Positions 825-31,162 of a stretch of DNA of 40,673 nucleotides are shown here, one piece after another. A model generated the notes under the pieces. It made no database searches. It worked only from the letters and a program-made list of their open reading frames with translations, and was not told the origin of the DNA. The stretch is taken from NCBI GenBank assembly GCA_025351645.1, contig JANXVN010000297.1, positions 1 through 40,673 of the forward strand, given 5' to 3'. The stretch's first letter is position 1, and every line of letters begins with the position of its first letter. A program made the translations under genes and the position numbers. Origin of the DNA: Ferruginibacter sp. (GTDB lineage Bacteria; Bacteroidota; Bacteroidia; Chitinophagales; Chitinophagaceae).

Positions 825-1036
825 TTAACTAGTTTATCATACTTATAAAAAGATAAAAGCATCTTTTTATTGGCAATTACAGCTAAGGAATACAAAAATA
901 TTACAAAAAAATATATTAGAGAAAGAGTTTTGGCTTTACACACAATTGCACTTAAACTTTTTTACTTTCCATTTTAAGATACGGCTACAAAATACCTGCA
1001 ATATTTTTTATTTATTGCAACGGATACTTTATGATT

Positions 1037-1127
1037 CAATGCCGTTAAGTTAAGGATCTACATGTTTGTCTTTACCTCACCCTAACCCTCTCCAAAGGAG
1101 AGGAAAGGTCTTAACTTAACGGCATTG
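1037..1127 (+). mobile_element. 91-bp MITE-like element, copy 1
   Basis: The element is bounded by perfect 18-bp terminal inverted repeats, caatgccgttaagttaag at the left and its reverse complement at the right. Inside is a perfect 7-bp hairpin (1087-1093/1097-1103, loop AAA) within the pyrimidine-rich CCTCACCCTAACCCTCTCC stretch. The flanks form a 10-bp direct repeat with one mismatch: CTTTATGATT at 1027-1036 and CTCTATGATT at 1128-1137. The 91 bp are identical, in reverse orientation, to 30457-30547. It has no coding capacity, so mobility would need a transposase supplied from elsewhere. Confidence 0.85.
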
Positions 1128-1479
1128 CTCTATGATTATTAACAAGTTAAGTATTAAAATTTGTGCCGTCAAACATTTTGTTTTATAATAATGTATACAA
1201 TAAAATTATTTTTTGTAATAGATTGCATTATAAATTTTTATATTTTTTCTGCAAAATATAAATTTATTAAAAAAGAAGTTTAAGGTTAATAGCAACCAGT
1301 CCCTTGCTAATTTGGCTTTTTTATTTATGCGGATTGTAGTGTATTTTTTAGCCATTAATATAATGCGTGTAGTATTTTGGCTTAAAATTATTTATAGAGG
1401 AAAATAATTTTTGATTAAGTAGTATTTTCAACAACAGTAAACCTATTAAGGCTCATACTTTTTTAAAGATCAACACTTG

Positions 1480-30374: not shown

Positions 30375-30456
30375 AATTTTATTTAAGGCTGCAAAGAAAG
30401 GTATTAATGCCGAAGAAGCATAAGTTAATGCTAGTTTCAATTTACCTAACAACAAT

Positions 30457-30547
30457 CAATGCCGTTAAGTTAAGACCTTTCCTCTCCTTTGGAGAGGGTT
30501 AGGGTGAGGTAAAGACAAACATGTAGATCCTTAACTTAACGGCATTG
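30457..30547 (-). mobile_element. 91-bp MITE-like element, copy 2 (inverted)
   Basis: The reverse complement is identical over all 91 bp to 1037-1127, including the 18-bp terminal inverted repeats and inner hairpin. A perfect 10-bp direct repeat TAACAACAAT abuts it on both sides (30447-30456 and 30548-30557), which is what a transposition event leaves. Sequence identity and an unblemished duplication indicate a recent insertion. It lies between the DUF445 gene and the tRNA-His promoter. Confidence 0.88.
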
Positions 30548-30623
30548 TAACAACAATAGCGATACCTATTCACATCAATCCATAAAAAAAATAAATAAAA
30601 AGTCTAAAACTTCAAATGTAATT

Positions 30624-30670: not shown

Positions 30671-30744
30671 GTAGTCGTAGCTCAGTTGGTTAGAGCATCA
30701 GATTGTGATTCTGAGGGTCGGGGGTTCGAGCCCCCTCGATTACC
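30671..30744 (+). tRNA. tRNA-His (GTG anticodon)
   Basis: The cloverleaf can be folded by hand. The acceptor stem is GTAGTCG with CGATTAC (one G-T wobble). The D arm begins GCTC, the anticodon stem TCAGA/TCTGA encloses loop TTGTGAT with anticodon GTG at 30705-30707, and the T arm is GGGGG-TTCGAGC-CCCCT. The preceding base 30670 is G and can pair with discriminator C30744, as expected for the obligatory G-1 of tRNA-His. CCA is not encoded. It has its own promoter and terminator. Confidence 0.96.
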
Positions 30745-30752
30745 CATTAATA

Positions 30753-30784: not shown

Positions 30785-31162
30785 ATGCATAAAAAGTTTT
30801 GCTTTTTAGGTGGGCTAAAAATTAACAAACCTACTACAATAAAATAAGCGTATTTATATAAATGGATATAAGCCAATGCCTTTATAGTAAGGATTTATTT
30901 GTTTGTTTAACCTTACCCTTACCAATCCTTGCTCCAAAGGATAGGGAGGGTTTTAACTTAACTTCATTATAATATAAGCTGTAATTGGCGGTATATTATT
31001 TGTTCATCATAACCTATATATAATAGTATACACGATACTTAAATTATAATATACGCCTGTTACAAATAACGTTAATGCCACTCATTAATTTTTAAGAAAA
31101 CATTAGTCCATAATGAGATGTTAATCCAATAAATACAATCATTTTTCCGTTAATTTTATATC
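30785..31162. other. 378-bp intergenic region before the S41 protease gene
   Basis: It contains the degenerate third copy of the 91-bp element (30874-30969) and AT-rich sequence with a TATAATAGTATA-like stretch near 31018. No coding frame is convincing. TTAATTTTATAT just before the protease ATG only weakly resembles a -7 box. Confidence 0.6.
30874..30969 (+). repeat. Degenerate third copy of the 91-bp element
   Basis: It is in the same orientation as copy 1 and aligns end to end with several substitutions and small insertions. Conserved parts are CAATGCC at the left, TAAGGAT, GTTTGT, CTCCAAAGGA, and TTTTAACTTAAC before a diverged right end (TTCATTA for GGCATTG). The flanks GGATATAAGC (30864-30873) and TAATATAAGC (30970-30979) agree at 8 of 10 positions, a worn target duplication. 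It appears to be an older, immobile relic. Confidence 0.75.

Follow-up and report, generated by a model that had tools for sequence, protein, structure and literature searches.

The window analysed here, the whole stretch of 40,673 nucleotides from Ferruginibacter sp., carries three copies of a short repeated element (Table 1). Copy 1 is 91 bp long, with perfect 18-bp terminal inverted repeats (CAATGCCGTTAAGTTAAG), an inner 7-bp hairpin, and a flanking 10-bp direct repeat with one mismatch, and copy 2, 29.4 kb away, is 100% identical to it in the opposite orientation. A preliminary description, made from the letters alone, had proposed each of these features, and all are present as proposed. 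We note that it had missed a third, decayed copy 0.3 kb from copy 2, whose flanks agree at 8 of 10 bases; a tRNA-His gene lies between copies 2 and 3. The window also codes for a protein of 966 aa in which PKD and laminin-G domains are combined with a type IX secretion signal, adjoined by an unrelated SNF2-type helicase, also of 966 aa; the equal length looks coincidental. The 18-bp end has four exact matches in the window, versus 0.04 expected from shuffles with up to three mismatches allowed. Folding of the single-stranded 91-mer beats 200 of 200 shuffles on each strand (z -8.2 and -7.6), in a program that models the hairpin only, and no Rfam family matches window positions 900 to 1300 at gathering thresholds.

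Table 1. Element copies, their parts, and other features of the window
Feature	Position	Strand	Basis
Left target-site duplication, copy 1, CTTTATGATT	1027-1036	+	Duplications of 10 bp flank most of the 86 copies
MITE copy 1, 91 bp	1037-1127	+	End search and copy alignment
Left 18-bp terminal inverted repeat, CAATGCCGTTAAGTTAAG	1037-1054	+	Common, with few mismatches, to IS4-family insertion sequences
Core resembling intrastrand-triplex/G-quadruplex-hairpin motif, CCTCTCC-TTT-GGAGAGGG-TTA-GGGTGAGG	1075-1103	-	Fits trimmed TMECO pattern, not strict consensus (as given in the available text of PMC4666352)
7-bp inner hairpin, CCTCTCC-AAA-GGAGAGG	1087-1103	+	Sequence and folding computation
Right 18-bp terminal inverted repeat	1110-1127	-	End search
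Right target-site duplication, copy 1, CTCTATGATT, one mismatch	1128-1137	+	Sequence
PKD/laminin-G protein, 966 aa	8901-11801		
SNF2-type helicase, 966 aa	5773-8673		
Left target-site duplication, copy 2, TAACAACAAT	30447-30456	+	Sequence
MITE copy 2, identical to copy 1, inverted	30457-30547	-	100% identity
Right target-site duplication, copy 2, TAACAACAAT, exact	30548-30557	+	Sequence
tRNA-His gene	30671-30745		
Third MITE copy, decayed (element at 30874-30969, 96 bp; flanks GGATATAAGC / TAATATAAGC)	30864-30979	+	Sequence

The element has the properties of a miniature inverted-repeat transposable element (MITE): it is 91 bp long, lacks a transposase gene, has perfect 18-bp terminal inverted repeats and a constant 10-bp target-site duplication, is present in many dispersed copies (415 ends in 4.7 Mb), and shares its ends with an autonomous element known from fragments here and from other genomes. 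The source genome (4.71 Mb in 320 contigs; completeness 96.73, contamination 1.59) contains 201 forward and 214 reverse matches to the 18-bp end with up to three mismatches, compared with 4 and 2 (6 in total) for a backwards-pattern control; with two ends per element, the 415 matches suggest about 200 elements. Forty copies were scored among 232 first-look candidates, and all are 98 to 100% identical over 90 to 91 bp. Based on open reading frames of at least 100 aa on the joined flanks, only 5 of 72 copies interrupt a reading frame, 47 lie between two (27 co-directional, 12 divergent, and 8 convergent, with the nearer frame at a median of 80 bp), and 20 have one on one side only. A search with the 91-mer in 59 genomes, including its own, gives matches in five at E <= 1e-6; one genome listed as the same genus (G029) has an element-like match (query 1-89, 80%), and in three others (G038, G004, and G014) the matches are confined to the core of the element or its surroundings. 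No match to the 91-mer was found in the plasmids and phages searched; a single viral contig has one MITE end, which lies 70 bases in from where the available stretch stops.

REP/RAYT repeats normally leave no target duplication, and this identity is rejected because 10-bp duplications with at most one mismatch are present at 73 of 86 copies, as the preliminary description had argued in favoring a MITE. Like REP/BIME sequences with RAYT, as generally known, the MITE is short, palindromic, intergenic, and multi-copy; unlike them, it has long terminal inverted repeats and is flanked by direct duplications. It resembles in some respects the BrickBuilt elements of Porphyromonas gingivalis, which in the available text of PMC4596501 likewise have IS-matching ends and a non-IS interior and are multi-copy and mostly intergenic. 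BrickBuilt belongs with the IS5 rather than the IS4 family, however, makes 4-bp rather than 10-bp duplications, is hundreds of base pairs long rather than 91, and has an interior of 23-nt minisatellite units in place of the triplex-type core described below. The MITE is ordinary in kind, and its recurrent core may be new.

Target duplications were surveyed in 86 copies, a subset of the approximately 200, obtained from 90 distinct element pairs extracted from loci after excluding four that enclose another element. Copies were chosen for an end match (among the matches listed, the first 100 of 415), for their likeness to the 91-mer, or for having an off-pattern end. The preliminary description had proposed tabulating the 10-bp flanks of all copies, and those of these 86 are exact in 60, differ by one mismatch in 13, by two in 4, and by more in 9; when flanks are swapped between different copies, only 0.4% are exact and 2.1% have one mismatch or none. 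No exact or one-mismatch duplication was seen in the 86 copies at lengths of 8, 9, or 11 to 14 bp. Copies retrieved by end match (39, of which 25 are exact and 34 have at most one mismatch) and by 91-mer similarity (42, with 31 and 35, respectively) give similar results. Five of the nine copies with more than two flank mismatches have imperfect ends; the other four (L013, L081, L112, and L113) have perfect ends. The consensus of the duplicated 10-mer, AWTYATRAWT, is palindromic, and the preference extends outward: the fifth preceding base (-4) is T in 67 of 73 sites, and the fifth following base (+15) is A in 62 of 73. Strong target-arm specificity is noted for some subgroup-IS4 elements in the available text of PMC2266710.

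Two loci show the state before insertion. At L079 (G000:C127:7200-8290, positions 464-690), one MITE lies inside an older MITE and the older element's 10-mer is duplicated; once the inner copy is deleted together with one 10-mer, the restored element can be aligned with dozens of intact copies. At L030, the MITE lies within another repeat, and two unfilled relatives of that repeat (L050 and L015) hold a single 10-mer, which differs from the left copy at L030 by one and two bases, respectively. This is a clear case of a MITE: copies number about 200 and many are nearly the same in sequence, their duplications are for the most part exact, the target has a readable consensus, and there is a likely source of transposase. 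The element is thus well suited to work on MITE bursts in Bacteroidota.

The Pfam N-terminal IS4 domain (Nterm_IS4) has no match in the 59 genomes, the source genome included, and we therefore looked for the mobilizing partner through unpaired ends at contig edges, at three loci (L047, L055, and L057). Two of these (L047, C10:8476-8666; L055, C79:1-397) start with the MITE's 18-bp end and run into the contig end, and the sequence following the 18-bp end is common to both and different from the MITE. L055 codes for 77 residues with a weak match to the NCBIfam IS4 model (E 8.9e-5, below the model cut-off). No complete IS4 copy was seen among the 320 contigs of the source genome, in which both fragments stop at contig ends. 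A contig scan across genomes with the 77 residues identified 10 relatives, of which 8 have the 18-bp end at the expected place with at most three mismatches; L103 has it with four mismatches and L107 does not have it. Three relatives have both ends: L101 (1398 bp, from a Chitinophagaceae MAG) and L104 (1467 bp, from a Bacteroidales MAG) with an exact 10-bp duplication, and L105 (1457 bp, from a MAG labelled Zixiibacteriota) without a duplication. The frame at the match is 103 aa in L101, and the frames of L104 and L105 are 448 and 449 aa. Those of L104, L105, and L099 match DDE_Tnp_1, and each scores above the NCBIfam IS4 cut-off.

These transposases, all from other genomes, have D-D spacings of 77 to 79, D-E spacings of 109 to 110, and the YREK residues in 3 of 3, and the published IS4-family definition is D(60-110)D(100-150)E with Y(2)R(3)E(6)K. 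For subgroup IS4, Table 1 of PMC2266710, as available, gives ends of -AATR--------WTW----, direct repeats of 10 to 13 bp, and a length of 1400 to 1650 bp. By inspection, CAATGCCGTTAAGTTAAG fits the end consensus; L104 and L105 fall within the length range and L101 is slightly short; and the 10-bp repeats of the MITE, L101, and L104 lie within the repeat range, with none at L105. The two ends of E. coli IS4 itself (TAATGCCGATCAGTTAAG and TAATGCCAGTCAGTTAAG) match the MITE end at all but 3 and all but 4 of 18 positions, and the IS4 duplication is 12 bp as opposed to the MITE's 10 bp, both within the subgroup's range; the L104 transposase is 23% identical to E. coli IS4 InsG over 349 residues. 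The MITE differs from members of the subgroup in having no gene, the partner ISs being 1398 to 1467 bp. Comparison of the displayed MITE and IS sequences reveals nothing obvious in common beyond the ends, and origin by simple internal deletion is thus unsupported.

Because these IS relatives have the same ends, duplications, and IS4-family reading frames, the mobilizer is most likely an IS4-family element of subgroup IS4, judging from sequence. Insertion sequences with the same 18-bp ends, for which the preliminary description had suggested a search, thus exist and encode IS4-family transposases; of the two sources that it had named, an IS4-like enzyme gains support from the ends, the 10-bp duplications, and the frames. 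We are highly confident that the element is a MITE moved in trans by such a transposase acting on the 18-bp ends that the two share, with the trans-mobilization itself read from sequence likeness. The transposase would bind both CAATGYCGTTAAGTTAAG ends in the source cell, excise the element, and join it to the palindromic AT-rich target AWTYATRAWT, and gap repair would then leave a 10-bp direct repeat on either side. A cut-and-paste chemistry would be expected from the IS4 family. The interior is not derived from the IS and is carried as cargo.

It is very improbable that another transposase (ISAs1, IS256, IS1, or similar) moves the MITE and that the IS4 likeness of its ends is coincidental. 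Several IS families produce duplications of 8 to 10 bp, and the search of the source genome for transposases, which covered PF01609 and PF13006, also recovered L031 (DUF4372 plus DDE_Tnp_1) and L035 (a 635-aa DDE_Tnp_1 protein). However, the MITE ends and 10-bp duplications do occur on IS4-family elements, and of 20,000 shuffles of the MITE end compared with each E. coli IS4 end, none came as close as the MITE end itself. L031 and L035 were rejected as partners, with no fitting ends of their own; across loci L031 to L036, the sole end with at most four mismatches adjoins L035 and belongs to a MITE. An artefact of assembly or binning, or spread by homologous recombination rather than transposition, is hardly credible. 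The genome is in 320 contigs, which speaks for such an artefact, yet completeness is high and contamination low, the copies differ in their flanks and in the sequence of the 10-bp duplication, and one MITE is nested in another at L079; the survey of 86 copies has largely refuted this explanation already.

The interior of the 91-bp MITE is centred on CCTCACCCTAACCCTCTCCAAAGGAGAGG. Read on the other strand, this core comprises a C-arm (CCTCTCC), a TTT loop, a G-arm (GGAGAGGG), a TTA loop, and a third strand (GGGTGAGG), and 7 of 8 positions agree between the G-arm and the reversed third strand. To judge by its sequence, the core resembles, with arms trimmed, the bacterial intrastrand-triplex or G-quadruplex-hairpin motif TMECO/PIT, a likeness that went unrecognised in the preliminary description. 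The motif occurs in many bacteria, and Microcystis is rich in it, with 443 motifs according to PMC4666352. The strict TMECO consensus, given as CCCTCNCCCN3-6GGGNGAGGGN3GGGNGAGGG in the available text of PMC4666352, has the same order of C-arm, loop, G-arm, TTA loop, and third strand; by comparison, the MITE core has a C-arm one base short at each end, a G-arm without its first base, and a third strand without its last. None of the 86 MITE copies fits the strict consensus, and the core is therefore referred to as TMECO-like and is not classed as TMECO. A trimmed pattern of our own making, written after the sequence was seen, fits 51 of the 74 copies of 90 to 92 bp, none of the 12 longer copies, and none of 4300 interior-shuffled controls. 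The E. coli motif of Kaplan 2016 is reportedly related to TMECO/PIT. The MITE core may fold as a triplex or G-quadruplex, and it may have some effect on the element.

Seventy of the 86 copies contain the core 19-mer with at most four mismatches, ungapped. The remaining 16 are mostly longer versions (102 to 113 bp), which have variant cores, and copies with changed or shifted arms. The 102-bp element at L093 (in the G000:C305:2873 region), has the same 18-bp ends and a duplication around a different GC-rich hairpin interior and is a second cargo for these ends. At 3 of 74 copies (L052:2929, L065:501, and L069:501), one core arm is rewritten so that a longer hairpin or palindrome is formed, and we infer that hairpin template switching is responsible. 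Conservation between copies is 0.972 in the core versus 0.955 and 0.948 in the spacers; the core is not clearly more conserved, and selection on it is thus unsupported.

The core pattern CCTCACCCYARCCCTCTCC, a 19-mer, occurs exactly in 28 of 395 Bacteroidota genomes, the source genome included, and the reversed pattern in none. At the loci read in other genomes, it often lacks MITE ends and stands alone or as close inverted pairs. Close, BIME-like inverted pairs of triplex-type cores are seen in other Bacteroidota at L183 to L191 (G576), L204 and L206 (G687), and L213 and L219 (G626). In the Chitinophagaceae MAG C1_MAG_00011 (G806; L134 to L202), which is also the genome of L101, two inverted-repeat families contain a like core, and their ends are unrelated to those of the MITE: GGGTGCATAAAAGTTTTTCG, associated with 8-bp duplications, and TTATACTCATAAGAAAAT, in the other family. 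Both families were found through the core, so that their counts refer to core-selected loci; one copy without a core was seen (L159:780). Family A has 8 copies of 115 to 117 bp, with the 19-mer exact in 6 and one base off in 2, the trimmed triplex pattern in none, and no long duplication (two of the 8 have an exact dinucleotide). Family B comprises 15 copies, of 91 to 93 or 214 to 216 bp plus one of 103 bp; the trimmed pattern fits 2 of 15, or 8 of 15 when a second loop of 2 to 4 bases is allowed, and the 19-mer is present with one mismatch in 2 of 15, the others having at least five ungapped mismatches, most with one extra C. Its 8-bp duplication is exact in 6 of 15 copies and has at most one mismatch in 7 of 15, as against swapped flanks, of which none are exact and 0.5% have at most one mismatch. 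The triplex pattern fits these families less well than it does the MITE. IS1595 was considered as a partner of the GGGTGCATAAAAG family and rejected; at the three loci in G806 matching PF12762, no end comes closer than 6 mismatches in 20 positions.

The occurrence of the core apart from MITE ends at many of the loci read, and within other inverted-repeat families in G806, is what would be expected if the triplex- or hairpin-type core were itself the mobile unit, REP- or BIME-like and moved by another enzyme, with the IS4-type ends secondary. We consider this highly improbable, as in the source genome the duplications directly adjoin the outer side of the 18-bp ends at 73 of the 86 copies and L093 combines the MITE ends with a different interior. 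In addition, all 51 matches to the trimmed pattern in 254 kb of loci from this genome lie within 90 bp of an end, in loci mostly picked for holding MITEs.

The unexpected outcome of this analysis is that a motif of the triplex/G-quadruplex-hairpin type is carried as cargo of the MITE. In the available text of Holder et al. 2015 (PMC4666352), the E. coli motif was not found to be associated with transposons, phages, or plasmids; here, in contrast, a closely similar core sits in bulk inside a transposon. Among open-access literature on triplex and quadruplex motifs and mobile repeats, surveyed by title and abstract with subscription papers outside the scope, none was found that places the motif in MITEs. 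We tentatively propose, at somewhat less than even odds, that MITEs are vehicles of this repeat, and that at least three families with unrelated ends acquired such a core independently, whether because its structure draws template switching as MITEs arise or because it aids their movement or tolerance. If true, this would explain the spread of the motif among distant bacteria, and with the core present in bulk inside a transposon and a like core in two other families, that spread becomes testable.

The third locus with an unpaired end, L057 (G000:C95, positions 1-207), has a MITE end and, after it, the beginning of a Tn5/IS50-type transposase at the contig end, with a match to the Tn5-type DNA-binding domain (PF14706, E 0.0009, under the Pfam cut-off). 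It was rejected as a second IS with the same ends; MITE-like sequence follows the end, and the locus is therefore read as probably an IS50-like element inserted into a MITE. A 40-aa search with L057 gives a match in 1 of 396 genomes, the source genome.
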